This document shows, in pieces, positions 3,925 through 19,865 of a DNA stretch of 64,000 nt (the stretch's first letter is position 1; each line of letters starts with the position of its first letter). A program made the translations under genes and the position numbers. The notes below the pieces were generated by a model. The model was not told the DNA's origin. It ran no database searches and worked only from the letters and a program-made list of their open reading frames with translations. Source of the DNA: Enemella evansiae (GTDB lineage: Bacteria > Pseudomonadota > Alphaproteobacteria > Rhodobacterales > Rhodobacteraceae); contig JAFKDC010000002.1 of NCBI GenBank assembly GCA_017255395.1, positions 62,001 through 126,000 on the forward strand, written 5' to 3'.

Positions 3925-4713
3925 TCAAGCCTGCGCCAGCGCGGCTTCGATGCGGGGGATGTCCTCGGGGTTGTTGAGCTCCCAGAACAGGCGGCCACGG
4001 GCCTCGACCTCGACGCAGGCGACCGGCGTGCCGTTCACCAGGAAGCGCAGCTGTTCCAGCCCCTCCAGCGTCTCCAGCGTGGTGACCGGGGTGGCGATGT
4101 AAGAGGCCAGCGCCTCGGGGCGGTAGGCGTAGACGCCGACGTGGTGGAAGACCGGGATCGGGTCGGGGCGCTTGTCGGGATCGATGAAGGGCAGCACCTC
4201 TTTCGAGAAGTAGAGCGCCTTCAAGTCCTGGTCGAAGACGGCGGTGGTGCCGCCGACCCGACCGTGCCGGCGGTCCTCGGTGAAGTTCTCGTAGGTCTGG
4301 GCATCGCAGCGCAGCACCGGGGTGGCGACATCGACGGTGGGGTCGTTGGCCATGCGCTCGATCAGCGCCTCGACGAACCACGGCGGCGTCAGGGGCGCGT
4401 CGCCCTGCAGGTTTACCACGAGGTCCGGCGTCTCGCCCAGCACCCGCAGCGCGTCGGCGCAGCGGGCGGTGCCGTTCTCGCAGGCGTCCGAGGTCATGAC
4501 GACCTTTGCCCCGAAAGCGTGCGAGGCCTCGGCGATGCGGTCGTCGTCGGTGGCGACGTAGATGGCATCGACGCCGGCGATCTGCTGGGCCGCTTCCCAT
4601 GTCATCTGGATCAGCGACTTGGTCGAGCCGTCCTTCTGGCGCAGCGTGGCCAGCGGCTTGCCCGGATAGCGGGTCGAGGCATAGCGGGCGGGGATGAAGA
4701 GGATCGTGCGCAT
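3925..4713 (-). CDS. kdsB: CMP-KDO synthetase
   Basis: A 262-residue 3-deoxy-manno-octulosonate cytidylyltransferase, which activates KDO with CTP. Motifs include IPARYASTRYPGKPLA (nucleotide binding), VATDDDRI, MTSDACENGTARCADA, NLQGDAPLT, VFHHVGVYAYRPEAL and a C-terminal LNNPEDIPRIE. The ATG at 4713 gives the canonical MRTILFIPARYAS; a GTG one codon upstream is less likely. It lies between kdsA and the KdsD-like isomerase, with about 150-200 bp spacers that could hold separate promoters. Confidence 0.95.
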   Translation of the reverse strand: MRTILFIPARYASTRYPGKPLATLRQKDGSTKSLIQMTWEAAQQIAGVDAIYVATDDDRIAEASHAFGAKVVMTSDACENGTARCADALRVLGETPDLVVNLQGDAPLTPPWFVEALIERMANDPTVDVATPVLRCDAQTYENFTEDRRHGRVGGTTAVFDQDLKALYFSKEVLPFIDPDKRPDPIPVFHHVGVYAYRPEALASYIATPVTTLETLEGLEQLRFLVNGTPVACVEVEARGRLFWELNNPEDIPRIEAALAQA

Positions 4714-4861
4714 CACAGGGCTCCGTCGTGCCGGGGGACAGGTCTGGCCGCGCCGTGGCGCGCGCCGGTGGTGGTCAGGGTGAGGGGCCGCCTCTGCGGC
4801 TGTCCTTGCGCCCGCGTGGCCGGGGTACGGCGCGGGGCGCGGTGGGGATGGCCCGGGCGCA

Positions 4862-5839
4862 TCACATCACCCCCGCGCGCAGGAAGTCGTGCAGATGCAG
4901 CACGCCCACGGGGCGCTTGTTTTCGTCCACCACCAGCAGCACCTGCACCTGGCGGGCATTGGCCAGCGCCAGCGCCTTCGGGGCGTATTGGTCGGGCGCG
5001 ATGGTGACGGGCGTGCGGTTGGCCACGTCGATCGGGCGCCGCTCCATCAGGCCGGGCAGGTTGCGCCGCAGGTCGCCGTCCGAAATCACGCCCCGCAACA
5101 CGCCGCCCTCTGTCAGCGCGGCGATGCCGAAGCCCTTCGAGGTCATGGCGAGGATGACGTCGTCCATGGTGCAGTCGCCGTCGAGCACCGGGATGGCCTC
5201 GCCGGTGTGCATCATCTCGGCCACGGTCTTCATCTGCGCGCCCAGCTTGCCGCCGGGGTGATAGGTGCCGAAATCCTCGGACCGGAAGCCGCGTGCCTCC
5301 ATCAGGGCCACCGCCAGCGCGTCGCCAAGCGCCAGCGTCAGCGTGGTCGAGGTGGTGGGCGCCATGCCCAGCGGGCAGGCTTCGGGCATTTTCGGCAGGG
5401 TCAGGCGGAAGTCTGCGGCCTTCATCAGGCTGCTGTCGGGGTTCGACGAGATCCCGATCATCGGGATCGCGAAACGCCGCGTGTGGTAGATGATGTCACG
5501 CAGTTCCGCCGTCTCGCCCGAGTTCGAGATCAGCAGGCAGATGTCCGCGCCGGTGATCATGCCCATGTCGCCATGGCTCGCTTCGGCGCCATGCACGAAA
5601 TACGAGGGCGTTCCGGTCGAGGCGAGGGTGGCGGCGATCTTGCGCCCGATGTGGCCGGACTTGCCGATGCCCGAGACGATGACGCGGCCCTTGGACAGAA
5701 GGATGCGCTCGACGGCGCCGGTCAGGTCGGGCGGCAGGTGCTCGGCCATGTAGGCGAGGGCCTCGGCCTCTGTCGTCAGGGTGCGCCGGGCCGAGGCGGC
5801 GGTGTCTTGGGGCAGGGGGGCGGTCATCTGTGTCTTCAC
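4862..5839 (-). CDS. kdsD: Arabinose-5-phosphate isomerase (KpsF/GutQ/KdsD family)
   Basis: 325 residues with the standard order: an N-terminal SIS sugar-isomerase domain (VSGIGKSGHIGRKIAATLAS, LISNSGETAEL, MAPTTSTTLTLALGDALAVAL) followed by two CBS domains. It interconverts ribulose 5-phosphate and arabinose 5-phosphate, the first committed step of KDO synthesis, and so feeds the neighbouring kdsA and kdsB products. Start is a GTG at 5839 or the ATG four codons later (5827). A hexanucleotide tandem repeat lies about 200 bp upstream. Confidence 0.9.
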   Translation of the reverse strand: MKTQMTAPLPQDTAASARRTLTTEAEALAYMAEHLPPDLTGAVERILLSKGRVIVSGIGKSGHIGRKIAATLASTGTPSYFVHGAEASHGDMGMITGADICLLISNSGETAELRDIIYHTRRFAIPMIGISSNPDSSLMKAADFRLTLPKMPEACPLGMAPTTSTTLTLALGDALAVALMEARGFRSEDFGTYHPGGKLGAQMKTVAEMMHTGEAIPVLDGDCTMDDVILAMTSKGFGIAALTEGGVLRGVISDGDLRRNLPGLMERRPIDVANRTPVTIAPDQYAPKALALANARQVQVLLVVDENKRPVGVLHLHDFLRAGVM

Positions 5840-6196: not shown

Positions 6197-7381
6197 CTAT
6201 GGCCGGTCGATCCCGGCGGCGGCGTGGCGGATCTCGCCCAGCAGGTCCGCCTGCGCGCGGGTCGGCACCCAGCCGTCCCGCACGGTCAGGCCGATGCGCC
6301 GTCCGGGCCAGCGGGTGCGGGTGTCCAGCCGTTGCAGAAGGCGGTTGCGGACCTCTGCCTCGGCCTGTCGCGCAGAGATGCAGCCCAGCCCGTCGCCGCG
6401 CCTGAGAAATTCGCGCATCAACAGGATAGAGCCGCTTTCGACGATGCTTTCCGGCAGGGCCAGCCCCTCGGCGGCGAAAAGCGCCGCGACCTGCGCGTGC
6501 GCGGGGGTGCCAGAGCGGGGCAGGCACCAGGGGTAGGCGGACAGCACCTTCAGCGGAATGTCGCGCCGGTCCGACAGGGGATGGCCGGGGCGGGCGATCA
6601 CCGCGAGGTGATCGGTGAACAGCGGCTCCTGCACCACGTCGGCGATGGGCAGCGGATCCCGCAGGGCGCCGAGGATGATGTCGATGCTGCCGCGCCGCAG
6701 GCTGGCCAGCATCTCGTCGTAGGGGCCGTCAAGCACGGTGATGCGCGCCATGGGGCGGGCCTCGCGGAACCGCGCCAGCGCCTCGGGCAGGACGACGGAG
6801 CGCGAAAGCGGCAGCGCGCCGATGGTGATCCGGCCCTGTTCGCGGCCATCCAGTTCGGCAAGGTCGGCTTCCGCCTGCTGGAACTCGGAAAAGGCAAGCC
6901 GCGCCGCCTGCGCGAGGTCCCGGCAGGGGCGCGTCGGCAAAAGCCCGAAAGAGCTGCGCTCGAACAGCGGGCGCCCGGCGGCATGTTCCAGCTGGGTGAT
7001 GGCGCGGTGCACCGTGGGCTGCGCGAGCTCCAGCGCGCGCGCGGCCAGCGTGGTGTTCTGCGCCTCGGTCACCGCGATCAGCGCCTGAAGCTGGGTCATG
7101 GTGGCAGAGGCCTTGAGGCGGGGCGCGATCTCGTCGAGGCCCGCGTCGAGGCGGCGCATCGCGCGGTCCAGCCGGTCCCGCAGGACCACACCGCGCGGCG
7201 TCGGGAAGAAGCCCTGCCGTGTGCGTTCGAACAGCGCGCCGCCGCTCCCGCGTTCAAGCTTGGCAAGGGCCTGGGTGACGGCGGGCTGGGACACGTGGCA
7301 CTGCTGCGCCGCTGCCGTCGGAGAGCGCAGGTCGGCGGTCGCAAGAAAGACGCGCAGGTGGCGCAGGTTGCGAAAGGGCAT
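6197..7381 (-). CDS. LysR-family regulator with two N-terminal HTH domains
   Basis: At 394 residues it is about 90 longer than normal LysR proteins. A first winged-helix HTH covers about residues 3-62 (LRHLRVFLATADLRSPTAAA, QPAVTQALAKLE). A second lies at about 95-154 (MTQLQALIAVTEAQNTTLAA, QPTVHRAITQLEHAAGRPLF). A typical effector-binding domain follows from about 180. The doubling is seen directly; duplicated-HTH LysR proteins do exist in Rhodobacterales. Target and ligand are unknown. The neighbour upstream is a zinc alcohol dehydrogenase on the same strand. Confidence 0.88.
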   Translation of the reverse strand: MPFRNLRHLRVFLATADLRSPTAAAQQCHVSQPAVTQALAKLERGSGGALFERTRQGFFPTPRGVVLRDRLDRAMRRLDAGLDEIAPRLKASATMTQLQALIAVTEAQNTTLAARALELAQPTVHRAITQLEHAAGRPLFERSSFGLLPTRPCRDLAQAARLAFSEFQQAEADLAELDGREQGRITIGALPLSRSVVLPEALARFREARPMARITVLDGPYDEMLASLRRGSIDIILGALRDPLPIADVVQEPLFTDHLAVIARPGHPLSDRRDIPLKVLSAYPWCLPRSGTPAHAQVAALFAAEGLALPESIVESGSILLMREFLRRGDGLGCISARQAEAEVRNRLLQRLDTRTRWPGRRIGLTVRDGWVPTRAQADLLGEIRHAAAGIDRP

Positions 7382-13460: not shown

Positions 13461-14336
13461 TCAGGCCACGTTCTTCAGCGTCTGGTTCGGGGTCACGCCA
13501 AGCGCGAAGCAGACGTCGCGGGTCAGTTCCGGGCGGTTCAGCGTGTAGAAATGCAGCTTGTCCACACCGCCCTCGATCAGCTCCGAGCAAAGCTCGGTGC
13601 AGAGCGCGGTGGCCAGCAGGTCCTGACGGTCGTCGCGCTCGGCCTTCTCGAAGGCCTCGATGACCCATGCGGGAATTTTGGTGCCGCAGCCCTCGGCGAA
13701 GCGGCGCGCGCCCTTCCAGTTCTCGATGGGCAGGATGCCGGGCGTGACGTATTGGTCGATGCCCGCCTTGGCGCAGGCGTCGCGGAAGCGGAAGAAGGTC
13801 TCTGCCTCGAAGAAGAACTGGGTCAGCGCTTCGGTGGCGCCGGCGTCCAGCTTGCGCTTCAGCCAGTCGATGTCGGCGCCCGCGTTCGCGGCCTCGGGGT
13901 GGGTGTCGGGGTAGGCGCCGACGCGGATGGTGAAATCGCCGGTCCCGGCCAGTGCCTCGATCAGCTCGACCGAGTTGGCGAAGCCGCCCGGGTGCTGGCG
14001 GAACCCGTCCGAGCCCTTGGGCGGATCGCCCCGCAGCGCCACGATGTCGGTCACGCCGACCTTGGCAAAGCTCTGCGCGATCTCCAGCGTTTCTTCGCGA
14101 GTAGCGTCGACGCAGGTCAGATGCGCGGCGGTGCGCAGCCCGGAATGCTTGTGGATCGTGGCCACCACGTCGCGGGTCAGGTCGCGGGTCGTGCCGCCCG
14201 CGCCGTAGGTCACCGACACGAAGCGCGGCGCCAGCGGCGCCAGCACCTGCACGCTGTCCCAAAGGCGGAAGGTGCCCTCGATGTTCTTGGGCGGGAAGAA
14301 TTCGAGCGAGATCTCGGGGCGGGTCATCTGGGTCAT
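13461..14336 (-). CDS. metF: Methylenetetrahydrofolate reductase [NAD(P)H]
   Basis: 291 residues, the length of bacterial MetF. It reduces 5,10-methylene-THF to 5-methyl-THF for methionine synthesis. Motifs include ISLEFFPPKN near the start, VSVTYGAGGTTRDLT, AHLTCVDATREET, VALRGDPPKG, GAYPDTHPEA, TQFFFEAETFFRFRD and HFYTLNRPELT. It is divergent from a MetR-like regulator with a likely operator between them, and is followed by an intrinsic terminator. Confidence 0.95.
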   Translation of the reverse strand: MTQMTRPEISLEFFPPKNIEGTFRLWDSVQVLAPLAPRFVSVTYGAGGTTRDLTRDVVATIHKHSGLRTAAHLTCVDATREETLEIAQSFAKVGVTDIVALRGDPPKGSDGFRQHPGGFANSVELIEALAGTGDFTIRVGAYPDTHPEAANAGADIDWLKRKLDAGATEALTQFFFEAETFFRFRDACAKAGIDQYVTPGILPIENWKGARRFAEGCGTKIPAWVIEAFEKAERDDRQDLLATALCTELCSELIEGGVDKLHFYTLNRPELTRDVCFALGVTPNQTLKNVA

Positions 14337-14373
14337 CCTCTAAGCGTTGAGCGCTTGTCGCACGCGGGCCTTT

Positions 14374-14388
14374 GTGAGACAAACTCAT
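14374..14388. promoter_or_regulatory. Candidate MetR operator
   Basis: GTGAG-ACAAA-CTCAT contains the dyad TGAG-N5-CTCA (14375-14387) in the 79-bp spacer between metF and the MetR-like gene. It has the same spacing as the enterobacterial MetR site (TGAA-N5-TTCA). Assignment is by position and symmetry. Confidence 0.5.
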
Positions 14389-14415
14389 AGTTTTCAAGTT
14401 CAACATGAGCCGGAT

Positions 14416-15321
14416 ATGCATATAGAGTTCCGTCACCTGCGGACCATCAAGGCCATCCACGAGGCCGGGGGGCTGGCCCGCGCCGCCGATCATCTGAACA
14501 TCACGCAGTCGGCCTTGTCCCATCAGATCAAGGGGTTGGAGGATCAGGCGGGGGTCGAGCTCTTTGTCCGCCGCTCCAAGCCGATGAAGCTTTCCGCCGC
14601 CGGTCTGCGGTTGCTGCGGCTGGCAGAGCAGGTGCTGCCGCAGGTCGAGGCGCTTCAGGACGAATTCGCGGGTCTGCGGGCGGGCAACGCCGGGCGGCTG
14701 CACATCGCCATCGAGTGCCACGCCTGTTTCGAATGGCTGTTCCCGGTGCTCGAATCGTTCCGCAAGGCCTTCGGCGATGTCGACGTGGACATCCGCCCCG
14801 GTCTGGCCTTCGACGCGCTGCCCGCGCTGATGAAGGAAGAGGTCGACGTGGTGATCTCCTCCGATCCCGAAGACCTCACCGGCGTCACCTTCGTGCCGCT
14901 CTTCGATTACAACCCGGTCTTCGTGGCCTCGTCCCAGCATCCTCTGGCGGCGAAACCCTTCATCGAGGCGCAGGATTTCCGCGGCGAGACGCTGATAACC
15001 TACCCGGTCGAACGGTCGCGGCTGGACATCTTCAGCCAGCTGCTGACCCCGGCCAAGGTGGAACCGGCGGCGATCCGGCAGGTGGAACTGACGGCGGTGA
15101 TCCTGCTCTTGGTGGCCTCGAACCGCGGCATCGCCGTGCTGCCCGACTGGGTGGTGCGCGAGGTCAAGTACAACTCGGACTATGTCACGCGCCCGCTGAC
15201 GGAACAGGGCATCACCCGCAGGCTGTACGCGGCGGTGCGGACCGAGGACATGGAAAAGCCCTATATGAAAAAGCTCATCGCGCTGGCCGGGCAGGAGGCG
15301 CGCAAGCTGCAAAGCGCCTGA
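14416..15321 (+). CDS. metR: LysR-family regulator, MetR-like
   Basis: 301 residues beginning MHIEFRHLRTIKAIHEAGG. It has an HTH at residues 4-63 (LNITQSALSHQIKGLEDQ) and a MetR-like effector domain containing IECHACFEWLFPVLESFR. MetR activates methionine-cycle genes with homocysteine as co-effector. The divergent metF and the spacer dyad support that role here. The ATG at 14416 was chosen; upstream in-frame codons lack family support. Confidence 0.85.
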   Translation: MHIEFRHLRTIKAIHEAGGLARAADHLNITQSALSHQIKGLEDQAGVELFVRRSKPMKLSAAGLRLLRLAEQVLPQVEALQDEFAGLRAGNAGRLHIAIECHACFEWLFPVLESFRKAFGDVDVDIRPGLAFDALPALMKEEVDVVISSDPEDLTGVTFVPLFDYNPVFVASSQHPLAAKPFIEAQDFRGETLITYPVERSRLDIFSQLLTPAKVEPAAIRQVELTAVILLLVASNRGIAVLPDWVVREVKYNSDYVTRPLTEQGITRRLYAAVRTEDMEKPYMKKLIALAGQEARKLQSA

Positions 15322-15851: not shown

Positions 15852-16058
15852 TCAGAGGGTCTTCAGGTCAGAGGCCATCTGGCGGCCATCGCGGCCTTCG
15901 CGCAGCTCGTAGCTGACCTTCTGGTTGTCGGCGAGGCCGGTCAGGCCGGACCGCTCGACTGCCGAGATATGGACGAAGACGTCCTTGCCGCCCTCATCTG
16001 GCGCGATGAAGCCGTATCCCTTGGTGGTATTGAACCATTTCACGGTGCCGTTCGGCAT
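15852..16058 (-). CDS. csp: Cold-shock domain protein (CspA family)
   Basis: 68 residues: a complete cold-shock domain with RNP1 KGYGFIAP and RNP2 DVFVHISAV, beginning MPNGTVKWFN. These are cytoplasmic nucleic-acid chaperones. The ATG at 16058 matches the family start. The 235 bp up to the divergent ArsC-like gene leaves room for a long 5' leader, as is usual for csp genes, but I cannot show one. Confidence 0.93.
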   Translation of the reverse strand: MPNGTVKWFNTTKGYGFIAPDEGGKDVFVHISAVERSGLTGLADNQKVSYELREGRDGRQMASDLKTL

Positions 16059-16293
16059 TGTTCCCGTGCTCCTTTCCAGTCCTGCATTCGGCCCCTCAGC
16101 GCCGGGGCCACCCAGACACATCCGAGGGCCGGTGCCGTGGTGGCGGCCCCGCAGGGCGACACCTTATGCCGATCTTCGAAGGTCTCGAAAAAAACATGAA
16201 GCCCCTGTTGGAAAAAGCAAGCCCCGTGCTTTCGTATTTCATTCCCGCGACGCATATTTGCGGTCGGATGAAGAAGAAGAGGGCGAATTTCCC

Positions 16294-16608
16294 ATGCAAT
16301 TATACGGATTGCGGACCTGCGATACCTGCCGGAAGGCCTTGAAGGCCCTGCCGGGTGCCACGCTGGTCGATGTGCGCGCAGAGGGGCTGCCCGATGCGGT
16401 GCGCGACCGCGCGCTGGCCAGCTTTGGCGAGCGTCTGGTGAACACCCGCTCCACCACCTGGCGCGGCCTGTCCGAGGCAGAGCGCGCGGCCCCGCCCGAG
16501 ACCCTGCTGGCCAGCCACCCGGCGCTGATGAAGCGGCCCTTGATCGTCGATGGCGACGCCATGTGGCTGGGCTGGGACAAGGCGGTGCAGGCAGAGCTTG
16601 CGGGCTAA
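16294..16608 (+). CDS. ArsC/Spx-family thioredoxin-fold protein
   Basis: 104 residues starting MQLYGLRTCDTCRKALKALP. The CDTC motif and the later VNTRSTTWRGLSE and LIKRPLIVDG-like segment (LMKRPLIVDGDAM) place it in the ArsC/YffB/Spx group. Members are glutathione-linked reductases or RNA-polymerase-binding proteins; whether it reduces arsenate is not readable, and there are no ars neighbours. Confidence 0.85.
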   Translation: MQLYGLRTCDTCRKALKALPGATLVDVRAEGLPDAVRDRALASFGERLVNTRSTTWRGLSEAERAAPPETLLASHPALMKRPLIVDGDAMWLGWDKAVQAELAG

Positions 16609-16635: not shown

Positions 16636-17223
16636 TCAGGCGGCGGGCTGGGGGGCGCGCCGATCCTGTCCAAGCACGCGATCCAGCGACAGCGCCCCGG
16701 CGCCCTTGAAGACCAGCGTCGCCAGCAGCAGTCCCCAGAACAGGCGCTGGTCCAGGATGACCCCGTCCGGCGCCCGGTCGAACCACGCCCCCAGCGTCGC
16801 CGCATGGGCCAGCCCGCCGTGACCGTAAAGGTCGGTCAGGCTCTGCACCGCGACGAACCCGATCATGCCAAGGGCGGCCAGCCGCGTCAGCAGACCGGTC
16901 AGGATCAGCAAGGGCAGCAGGAATTCCGCCCAGGTGCCCAGCACCACCACCGCCCAGTGCCAGAGGCCAAGGGCGTCGCTGTTGTAGCCCACCGCTTCGA
17001 ACTGGCGCGGGAAGATCTGCGCATAGGCGCCGCTGGAGGGCCGCAGAAAGCCGAAGATCCCCTCGCCCAGCTTGGTGGCGGCAGAGGCCCAGAAATACCC
17101 CGCAAGGCTTGCGGCGAAGATCAGGCGCGCCAGAAGCGGCAGCGCTTCGTCCCCGGCGCGGGACAGGGCGGCAGAAAGCCGCGCCAGCGCGGCCTTAAGG
17201 CGGTCAGTCATCGGCGCAGGCAT
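16636..17223 (-). CDS. bufD: DoxX-family membrane protein of the bufferin operon
   Basis: 195 residues with about four hydrophobic helices: LPLLARLIFAASLAGYFWAS, a second at WAVVVLGTWAEFLLPLLILT, LAALGMIGFVAVQS and LFWGLLLATLVFKGAGAL. DoxX proteins commonly close DUF2282-MNIO-DUF2063 operons; their job is unsettled. The start at 17223 overlaps the bufC stop by 20 bp (an ATG at 17211 would overlap by 8), so translation is coupled. Confidence 0.85.
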   Translation of the reverse strand: MPAPMTDRLKAALARLSAALSRAGDEALPLLARLIFAASLAGYFWASAATKLGEGIFGFLRPSSGAYAQIFPRQFEAVGYNSDALGLWHWAVVVLGTWAEFLLPLLILTGLLTRLAALGMIGFVAVQSLTDLYGHGGLAHAATLGAWFDRAPDGVILDQRLFWGLLLATLVFKGAGALSLDRVLGQDRRAPQPAA

Positions 17224-17977
17224 GGGGGCGATCCTCCGGGGCGAGGGTAAGGGCAGAGAGCGCGCCGCCTGTCAGAAGCAGCGACAGGACGGGTCTGGGA
17301 TCGCTGTCCCCGGCATGACCGAAGGCGGCGCCCAGCGGTTCGCCCCGCACCAGCGCGGCGGCGACATCGGCGCCGCCCGGCGGCAGGGTATGGGGAACCG
17401 GGTCGAAGCCGGGACGGCAGACAAGGACATCCTCGGAGACAGGCTTCGGCGCGGGCGTTCCGGGCGTCATCGTGTAGCGGTACAGCGACAGCGCCGGCCA
17501 GCGCGACCGCAGCAGGCGCGTGGCCGGTGCGACGGTGACGCGGGCCTGCGCCAGCGCCGCCTCGTCCAGCCCGGCAAGGGCTGCGGCATCCAGCCGGGGC
17601 GCATCTGCGGCGTGGTAGCTTTGCCGCAAGGCAAGCTCCAGCCGCGCCACGTCCCCAAGATAGCCAAGATGCGCCAGCCGGGGCTCCGCCTCCAGAAAGG
17701 CCGGGAAAGCGCTGCCATAGACCATCATGCGCGGCGAGCGGGGCGGCGAGCGGCGCAGGAAGGCCCCGGCGACCATGGCGAAATTCTCGGGCCCAAGCAG
17801 CCTGGCCACTGCCGGAAAACCCGCTTCCAGCGCCTCGCGCAGCGAGACCGCGACATTGTTGCGATAGATCGCATAGCGCCGTGCCGCCCCGCGGCCCGCG
17901 GCATCGCGCAGCCCCCCGGGCACCGGCTGCGCCGGATCCAGAAGCCCGCGGTAGAACCTGTCCTGCGAGACAATCAT
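17204..17977 (-). CDS. bufC: BufC-like partner of the MNIO enzyme (DUF2063 N-terminal domain)
   Basis: 257 residues with the DUF2063 signature [34 protein letters not shown] and [16 protein letters not shown]. In bufferin systems the partner protein presents the precursor peptide to the MNIO enzyme. The ATG at 17977 overlaps the bufB stop as ATGA. A dispersed repeat lies just upstream of this start, inside the bufB tail. Confidence 0.88.
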
Positions 17978-18906
17978 GCGCGCAGCCTGGCCGTCTTCTT
18001 TGGTCCGGAAAATACCTCGGGGGTGAGGCCGCAGGCCGAGGGGGCGGCGCGCCCGGCCTTGGCCGCCGCCCGCGCCAGGGCCCGACCGGCCCGCGCCGCC
18101 TCTGCCTCCAGCACCGGCCAGTCGGGCACGTCTGTGTCCCATTCGATCAGCACCGGGCGCGGCCCCGCCCGGTCGAGCACCCGGTCCAGCAGCGCCCAGA
18201 CCGGATCGGCCACGGCCCTCCCGTGGCTGTCGATCAGCAGCGGCGCGCCGTGCTCGTCGCTGTCCTCGTCATGGCCGCCCAGATGGATTTCGCCCACGGC
18301 CTCCAGGGCGAAGGCGTCCAGGTAGGCCTCTGCCGACAGCCCCAGGTTCACCGCCGAGACGAAGACGTTGTTCAGGTCCAGCAGCAGCCCGCAGCCGGTG
18401 CGCCGGGCGATCTCGGCAAGGAAGGCGGGTTCCTCCCATGTGCTTTCGGCGAAGGCCAGGTAGGAGGACGGGTTTTCCAGCAGCATCTGCCGACCCAGCG
18501 CCTCCTGCACGCGCCCGATGTGGTCGCAGACCCGGGTCAGGGTGGCATCGGTATAGGGCAGGGGCAGAAGGTCGTTCAGGAAGGCGCCGTCATGGGTCGA
18601 CCATGCCAGATGTTCCGAAAAGCGGGCGGGCTTCAGCCAGCCGGCCAGATGCGCCAGCCGCGCCAGGTGGTCGCGATCCAGTGGCGCCGCGCCGCCGATC
18701 GACAGGCCCACGCCATGGACCGAGACGGGAAAGCGTTCCGCCAGCGCGCGCAGCTGCGCCAGCGGGCGGCCGCCGTCGCCCATGTAGTTCTCGGCGTGGA
18801 TTTCCAGCCAGCCGACCGCGCCGGGCGCGTCTAGCAGGGCGGCGAAATGCTGCGGCTTGTAGCCGACTCCGGGCAGGGGCGGCAGGTCGCGGAGGGTGTC
18901 GAACAT
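17974..18906 (-). CDS. bufB: MNIO-family iron enzyme BufB (DUF692)
   Basis: 310 residues, a TIM-barrel multinuclear non-haem iron oxidase. Probable metal ligands are visible along the family pattern: E35/H37/N40 ([10 protein letters not shown]), H64 ([11 protein letters not shown]), SEH 97-99, E144/N145 (LLENPSSY), D177/N179 (LDLNNVFV), E206/H208/H212 (GEIHLGGH), D226/H228 and E255 (LIEWD). Such enzymes oxidise precursor cysteines to thiooxazoles. The last dozen or so residues ([14 protein letters not shown]) are encoded by a dispersed intergenic-type repeat and are probably a recent extension. Confidence 0.92.
17994..18023 (-). repeat. Dispersed repeat copy inside the bufB 3' end
   Basis: Read on the minus strand this is CCCCCGAGGTATTTTCC followed by GGACCAAAGAAGA. 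Near-identical sequence lies in two other spacers (34697-34725 and 37161-37189). Here it is translated as the bufB C-terminus and lies just before bufC. Confidence 0.75.
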
Positions 18907-19032
18907 GGGCGGGGTCCTTTGACCGGGAAAGCGCGGCGGGGCGGGCAGGGCGGTGCGGGCCGGAACACGGCGGTCTGGCACCGCACCGGGACGGGGGCGA
19001 AAGGGCGCGGGGGCCCCTCCGCCCCTGCCGGG

Positions 19033-19332
19033 TCATGCGTTGGGCAGGTCGCGGTCCAGCGCCTCGAGCGCGCCCATCCGGGCCGAGCCGTCCGCCATGT
19101 CCGGCAGCTCGATCTCGGCGCAGGTGCCGGCCTCGACCAGCGTCCAGGCGTTGCCCTGGTAATCGACGGTCGAGGTGCCCGCGCAGGTGGTGCCGGGACC
19201 GGCGGCGCAGTCGTTTTCCCCGGCGAGGCTGACGCCGAAGCACTTCTCCTGTTCCATCGCCTGGGCGCCGGTGGCCGAGAGAGCGGCGGCGACAGCCCCG
19301 ACGAGGGCGGCGGTCTTGATCGTTGCGGACAT
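19033..19332 (-). CDS. bufA: Bufferin-type precursor peptide (DUF2282)
   Basis: 99 residues. A signal peptide covers about 1-25 ([20 protein letters not shown]). Four cysteines then appear in the DUF2282 pattern: C31 ([14 protein letters not shown]), C42, C50 (TTCAG) and C71 (EAGTCAEIE). In characterised bufferins the MNIO enzyme converts cysteines to thiooxazoles that bind copper. The tail after C71 is 28 residues ([19 protein letters not shown] and on), longer than I expect for the family. The bufB start is 126 bp downstream on the same strand. Confidence 0.88.
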
Positions 19333-19422: not shown

Positions 19423-19723
19423 AGCCATTCACGGCGCCGTGGATCACGTGGCTGTCAGGCCGCCGGTTCGTTCCGTGAGGCTTCGCAGGTGCAGAAAGCC
19501 AGCCTTTTCAAGGCGCAGCGGCGGGCCGGCGAAACATTCGCGGGCCTATGCCGACCTTCCCGCGCTGGAATGTTGCAGTCGCGGGGCCGGGCAAAGGGGG
19601 CAAGACAGGCCGCCTCACGCCCCGCGTCAGAAATGTTACGGGCGCCAAGGGGCGTGATCCGGGCAGGGGCGGGCCGGGACGCGGCCCCGGCCCTTGCCAG
19701 TCCCGGAGGCCCGGCAAAGCTGT

Positions 19724-19843
19724 CAGGGCAGCAGGGCAGCAGGGCAGCAGGGCAGCAGGGCAGCAGGGCAGCAGGGCAGCAGGGCAGCAGGGCAGCAGGG
19801 CAGCAGGGCAGCAGGGCAGCAGGGCAGCAGGGCAGCAGGGCAG
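19724..19843. repeat. Minisatellite, 15 x CAGGGCAG
   Basis: Fifteen perfect tandem copies of the 8-mer CAGGGCAG (120 bp), with a partial copy after them. It lies between bufA and thrS, immediately past the thrS terminator. Because the unit is 8 bp it shifts frame each copy, so any protein reading of it is artefactual. The remaining gene-free DNA around it (19423-19723) holds no feature I can support. Confidence 0.95.
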
Positions 19844-19865
19844 CAGGCTCCCCGGGGGCAGGGCA

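Follow-up and report, generated by a model that had tools for sequence, protein, structure and literature searches.

A Buf1 bufferin operon with a lineage-typical precursor tail and a putative TCAC-N6-GTGA-type operator in a Roseobacter-like alphaproteobacterium

A complete bufferin operon of the Buf1 type was identified in a stretch of 64,000 nucleotides (nt) of contig JAFKDC010000002.1 (assembly GCA_017255395.1, positions 62,001 to 126,000), which is called the window here. All four genes, bufA, bufB, bufC and doxX, are located on its minus strand. The most probable reading of the results is that of an ordinary Buf1 operon of a Roseobacter-like alphaproteobacterium, in which the precursor BufA carries a tail typical of the lineage and control by palindromes of the TCAC-N6-GTGA type replaces that by sigma-F and NrsF. 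An earlier note on this DNA had described the operon and had regarded the tail as unusual; the gene content and the coordinates were right, whereas the tail proved to be the norm in the bacterial family. The features, in window coordinates, are as follows.

19033..19332, minus strand: bufA, DUF2282 (Buf1) precursor of 99 amino acids (aa), PF10048; stop codon included
17974..18906, minus strand: bufB, bufferin maturase of the multinuclear non-haem iron-dependent oxidative enzymes (MNIO), 310 aa, PF05114, NF050167, PDB entry 3bww at E=1.5e-40
17204..17977, minus strand: bufC, DUF2063 partner protein (PME type 1), 257 aa, PF09836, C-terminal domain resembling by fold a recognition element (RRE) of ribosomally synthesised and post-translationally modified peptides (RiPPs)
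16636..17223, minus strand: doxX, DoxX-family protein, 195 aa, PF07681
19258..19332, minus strand: signal peptide of BufA, about residues 1-25, ending in AQA before MEQEKC, judged by eye
19120..19242, minus strand: four-cysteine region of BufA, C31-C71, from sequence and alignment
19036..19119, minus strand: tail of BufA, residues 72-99, with the element G-(S/A)-L-x-x-L-x-R-D-L-P, from conservation
18994..19025, minus strand: G+C-rich hairpin with a 13-bp stem in the 126-nt gap between bufA and bufB, from folding
19425..19457, minus strand: putative operator TGACAGCCACGTGATCCACGGCGCCGTGAATGG, a pair of adjoining TnAC/CAC-N6-GTGA palindromes 92 nt upstream of the bufA ATG, from a weight matrix

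Part by part, the operon fits the ordinary Buf1 bufferins. All four proteins have Pfam matches: BufA reaches 82.6 bits against DUF2282 (PF10048, residues 29-76, cut-off 22.4), BufB 341.6 bits against PF05114 and DoxX 29.5 bits against PF07681 (cut-off 23.6), and PF09836 (DUF2063, 79.7 bits) is the sole family above the cut-off for BufC. BufB also exceeds the cut-off of the curated NCBI model for bufferin maturases, NF050167 (373.3 bits, cut-off 310). Searched against the PDB by sequence, BufC gave no match as a single query and one irrelevant match (E=0.67) as a profile. The top PDB matches of its predicted model, which has a mean predicted local distance difference test (pLDDT) of 94.4, were TglI, the MNIO partner (8hi7_A, 8hci_A), and NGO1945 (3dee) in a fold search, so that by its fold BufC contains a recognition domain. 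The order bufA-bufB-bufC followed by doxX is the typical Buf1 arrangement and, together with the BufB score and the BufC fold, supports a complete operon. The ATGA coupling described for the maturation genes was confirmed for bufB and bufC and not for bufA and bufB, which are separated by the 126-nt gap. The overlap of bufC and doxX is 20 nt, or 8 nt if the second methionine is the start of doxX. DUF2282 has one match in the window's own genome.

The N-terminus of BufA resembles a Sec signal peptide by eye. The cysteines C31, C42, C50 and C71, at the positions given before, do not vary in an alignment of 54 rows from close relatives. By analogy with the Buf1 precursor treated in the accessible part of PMC12452194, C42 and C50 would be the modified cysteines and C31 and C71 would form a disulfide. 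Cysteine-derived thiooxazoles and periplasmic copper binding would likewise be expected from the published chemistry (PMC12452194, PMC13097082).

The distribution of the tail was determined in two sets of loci. DUF2282 occurs in 211 of 295 genomes of the same bacterial family, from which 151 loci were taken; 131 were kept after dropping identical proteins, also those of the second set, and a few loci without a recognisable precursor. The second set, that of the named loci, consists of the best 80 of 552 confirmed stretches and is therefore biased to close relatives. An R-D motif, usually in the form ...GSLxxLxRDLP, is present in the tail of 121 of the 131 family loci. Tail classes were counted with narrower and wider versions of the motif, between which the counts differ slightly. 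The exact R-D-(L/I/V/M)-P occurs in 115 and G-(S/A/T)-L-x-x-L-x-R in 107 of the 131. In 10 the tail is short, with 17-18 residues and in most cases an end like GMGSLEPIxM. Most family tails have 22-28 residues, one has 32, and eight have 43-61 (L017, L029, L176, L190, L197, L213, L216 and L232, with the extra residues past R-D-L-P). Among the best 80 of 552 loci, 82 of 83 motif matches have the tail, the remaining one being a spurious match on the reverse strand. In the 54-row alignment, R85, G87, L89, L92, R94 and D95 are invariant. In a mixed sample of 69 precursors, chosen by class and phylum, the median tail has 18 residues and the motif occurs in 13, six from the same family and seven from outside the family, all of the same class. 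The generic end of DUF2282 proteins, GGSLxPK and similar, suggests that the R-D-L-P tail extends a common C-terminal element. Tandem bufA genes with the R-D-L-P tail in both copies were seen in L082 and L091 (near 4589-5300 and 5001-5740), and two DUF2282 matches 343 nt apart in G007 may be another tandem.

The 28 residues after C71 were counted correctly in the earlier note, and a tail common and conserved among orthologues, which it had named as evidence against its own proposal, is what the comparison found. Since the tail is both common and conserved in relatives, the claim of an unusual length falls, and an oddity of this one genome is ruled out by the 121 of 131 family loci and the 54-row alignment. 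The further suggestion that the modified core or the mature peptide might differ found no support. That the longer tail marks a different product, with another core, processing or metal, is very unlikely: the 28 residues do exceed the 18-residue median of the mixed sample, but the four-cysteine region is unchanged and invariant in the 54 rows, tails of this kind are the norm in the family, and BufB lies above the cut-off for bufferin maturases.

A role of the tail in maturation would be another explanation for its conservation, with the tail serving BufB and BufC as a follower recognition sequence, the C-terminal counterpart of a RiPP leader. The six invariant positions would fit this, as would the presence of bufB next to 212 of 215 tailed precursors, with the three misses near the end of a locus. 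However, the tail type does not track the maturase clade. In a tree of 193 BufB proteins, built with FastTree only, clade I (117 proteins, including that of the window) has 116 members beside R-D-L-P precursors, whereas clade II (26 proteins) has 13 beside R-D-L-P and 13 beside short-tailed precursors; with family precursors, as used in the following comparison, clade II has 13 R-D-L-P and 10 short tails. All 13 R-D-L-P precursors of clade II have a signal peptide nearer to that of the short-tailed clade II precursors and a tail nearer to that of clade I, and in 10 of the 13 the cysteine region resembles clade I. They appear to be mosaics whose signal peptide accompanies the maturase. As the signal peptide and not the tail tracks the maturase lineage, the tail is probably not a maturase handle, a role that the mosaic comparison disfavours and that we consider improbable. 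The pattern also fits the preliminary results mentioned in the accessible part of PMC12452194, according to which the recognition sequence includes the signal peptide. The tail is more likely to have a role in the fold or function of the mature peptide, as a conserved element typical of the lineage.

More surprising is the element upstream of bufA. In clade I it has the form TnAC-N6-GTGA-nn-CAC-N6-GTGA-nTGG, with the two palindromes 15 nt apart, and this tandem was found in 90 of 108 clade I upstream regions versus 0 of 23 in clade II. A weight matrix, whose 44-nt window ends 78 nt (median) ahead of the start codon, scored 155 of 211 upstream regions above threshold and none of 211 letter-shuffled ones. 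The bufA site is the sole perfect match to the element in the window's own genome, the next best having two mismatches. With at most one mismatch allowed, 120 family genomes contain 31 matches in 30 genomes, and a reversed control pattern none. Of these matches 30 could be placed: 28 lie within 600 nt of bufA by script, the one in G116 does so by its coordinates, and the one in G091 sits before an exported msrA gene. In G063, two operator matches flank one DUF2282 match. The TGTAACA words that came up in the first k-mer search were set aside, many of them lying 200-300 nt upstream and outside the operator region; many clade I loci have frequent words of the form TGTAACA(T/A) about 200-300 nt before the start of bufA, which may belong to the intergenic region that precedes it.

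The Caulobacter sigma-F consensus is GTAACC-N16-CGAA in the accessible part of PMC3511200, and in that of PMC6180224 a promoter resembling it lies before the DUF692/DUF2063 operon that RpoE7 controls in Sinorhizobium. A strict promoter of this type (GTAACn-N15-17-CGAA) is present in 10 of 23 clade II but only 2 of 108 clade I upstream regions. No GTAAC(n)-N15-17-CGAA promoter was found within 300 nt upstream of the window's bufA, and NrsF (PF06532) has no match in its own genome. NrsF occurs in 29 of 198 family genomes, among them G010 (L027), G175 (L206) and G135 (L025), all with clade I operons, and G162 (L286), whose operon lies outside both clades. Since NrsF is found in some clade I genomes and two clade I operons have sigma-F-type promoters, the regulatory switch is not absolute; and as NrsF genomes include clade I and operons outside both clades, sigma-F control also extends beyond clade II. 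The regulation of the window's operon looks like a lineage-specific variant.

Because the match in G091 lies before an exported msrA, the upstream regions of this gene were examined in relatives, using the best 30 of 78 matching genomes among 120. The exact palindrome TCAC-N6-GTGA was found in 20 of the 30, at 58-91 nt before the start (rate in shuffled msrA upstreams 0.0013), and in the own genome the core palindrome lies at -81. A hydrolase-OsmC fusion gene of the own genome has a site 87 nt before it, and the OsmC-hydrolase genes of relatives (best 30 of 59 matching genomes among 100, 29 with a start codon) carry the exact core at -83 to -105 in 20 of 29. Shuffled rates for the core before both genes are near 0.002 overall, and 5 of 4380 random 160-nt windows contain it. 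Sites of the form TCAC(C/G)-N4-(C/G)GTGA number 15 in the own genome versus 3 for the reversed control, and 20 versus 1 in G002. Most other core sites of the own genome are inside genes or without an assigned gene. One lies at a CorA-like gene, with the same 14-mer in G002. Palindromes inside genes, named by eye as LysR, clpA and kinase genes, were taken as chance; the LysR-type case is TCACCGCGAGGTGA at window positions 6598-6611, and its 14-mer recurs at two places in a same-genus genome. From these sites, we infer one putative regulator that ties the bufferin to a regulon for the repair of methionine and thiol oxidation.

Several observations weigh against the preferred reading of the operon as a whole. 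The tandem element is missing from 18 of the 108 clade I operons, and the weight matrix was fitted on the same upstream regions in which it was counted, with shuffles that kept the base content only. A quinone oxidoreductase gene was rejected as a regulon member: it occurs in 7 of 100 genomes and has the palindrome in only 2 of 6 genes with a start codon, those of the own and the same-genus genome. No regulator gene recurs close to bufA in the 80 loci or close to msrA; farther off, the genes named by eye from crude gene calls were a MetR-like LysR gene (13 of 80 loci, about 3.7 kb from bufA) and an ArsR-type gene (10 of 80, about 4 kb from it). The mosaic precursors could reflect old recombination instead of recognition. 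Another limitation is the poor predicted model of BufA (pLDDT 54.5), which was not used, so that no structural statement on the tail is made.

The element could also be private to these operons or bind another regulator than the one acting on msrA and OsmC-hydrolase, with a coincidental resemblance. This fits the lack of a regulator gene nearby and the form of the sites, as the bufA copies are tandem and degenerate (exact TCAC-N6-GTGA in only 11 of 108 clade I upstream regions), while most msrA and OsmC sites are single and exact. The full bufA matrix is likewise weak before msrA, exceeding 8 in 1 of 30 upstream regions and remaining low in 29, so that the core palindrome is what the two groups have in common; with the degenerate bufA copies, this makes a shared regulator a conditional proposal. 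On the other hand, the palindromes keep their position and spacing: 5 of the 30 msrA upstream regions have two exact copies, 16 nt apart, compared to 15 nt before bufA. In clade II, 15 of 23 bufA upstream regions have a single CAC-N6-GTG(A/T) palindrome followed after 2-8 nt by a sigma-F-like -35 word (6 of 108 in clade I), and the background of the exact core in random windows is low. We consider this alternative rather unlikely, though it is the strongest of those discussed, and retain a shared TCAC-N6-GTGA-type control as the preferred interpretation.

The gap between bufA and bufB contains a further conserved feature. As a whole it folds at -61.9 kcal/mol, and 103 of 140 homologous gaps have a z below -2 versus dinucleotide shuffles. 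As the stem in the window is not followed by a T run, a stabilising or partly attenuating hairpin is more likely than a full terminator.

Taken together, the following mechanism is proposed. BufA would be made with a Sec signal peptide and bound by BufC and BufB, mainly via its signal-peptide half. BufB would oxidise C42 and C50 to thiooxazoles, C31 and C71 would form a disulfide, and the modified peptide would be exported and bind copper in the periplasm. The hairpin probably allows an excess of the precursor over its enzymes. At the tandem TCAC-N6-GTGA-type operator, a putative regulator would switch the operon on and would also act on the exported MsrA and the OsmC-hydrolase, and this palindrome control would stand in for the sigma-F/NrsF control of the Caulobacter bufferins and of part of the same family.

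We take Caulobacter YedY to be MsrP, the periplasmic methionine sulfoxide reductase. Caulobacter sigma-F, an extracytoplasmic function (ECF) sigma factor, controls CC2748/YedY along with two DUF2282-DUF692-DUF2063 operons in the accessible part of PMC3511200, where the msrA homologues show no response to sigF; here, a palindrome and an exported MsrA take these places. The Buf1 system of Caulobacter vibrioides, as far as covered by the accessible part of PMC12452194, shares with the window the four-cysteine DUF2282 precursor with an apparent signal peptide, the MNIO protein BufB, the DUF2063 protein BufC, DoxX and the order bufABC. Unlike it, the window's operon has a tandem palindrome upstream and the R-D-L-P tail, and neither NrsF in the genome nor a sigma-F-type promoter was found. 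The Sinorhizobium meliloti RpoE7 operon, with DUF692/DUF2063 genes and a GTAAC...CGAA-type promoter, is under ECF control, and the accessible part of PMC6180224 names no methionine sulfoxide reductase beside it. In Neisseria, overexpression of the sigma factor raises both msrAB and genes of the ECF operon NGO1948-NGO1943, according to the accessible part of PMC2893595. Its NGO1945 is a DUF2063 partner protein, and the operon differs by its ECF sigma control and by the gonococcal product, gonophorin, with an EGKCG-type precursor (PMC13097082, accessible part). Fontiphorin and the captophorins from the same source are alike in the MNIO, the DUF2063-RRE partner and the 5-thiooxazole product class, and differ in having a repeat-motif precursor and not DUF2282. 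Given the Caulobacter and Neisseria cases, as far as these sources describe them, thiooxazole-peptide operons seem to have been paired with methionine sulfoxide reductase more than once and under different control. In the open-access literature searched, we recognised no paper that treats DUF2282 operons of Rhodobacterales or the TCAC-N6-GTGA palindrome.

Several other features lie near the operon. A perfect tandem repeat of 15.5 copies of the 8-mer CAGGGCAG occupies positions 19724-19847, between thrS and bufA; no run of at least three copies was found in L310, a stretch from the same genus. Beyond doxX, Pfam matches indicate an ArsC-family protein (16273-16608, plus strand) and a cold-shock protein (15852-16064, minus strand), and a MetF-like gene (13461-14336, minus strand) and a MetR-like LysR regulator (14347-15321, plus strand) were named by eye.

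Bufferins are widespread, but the control that induces them is known for few species. A compact, testable element resembling the sites of msrA and OsmC-hydrolase opens a straightforward way to both the inducing signal and the regulator in Roseobacter-type bacteria. The mosaic precursors are natural variants with which the part of BufA read by the maturase can be tested. The element also suggests that oxidation repair, and not copper handling alone, is among the functions of bufferins. More tentatively, and as a possibility in which we place limited confidence, a TCAC-N6-GTGA regulator may have displaced sigma-F/NrsF in Roseobacter-type bacteria and placed the bufferin in an envelope-oxidation regulon with the exported MsrA and the OsmC-hydrolase, where it would defend against oxidised methionines and thiols, for example from copper-driven or hypohalous oxidation, as much as against copper excess. 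If true, thiooxazole peptides and methionine sulfoxide repair would have been connected in several lineages, through different regulators.

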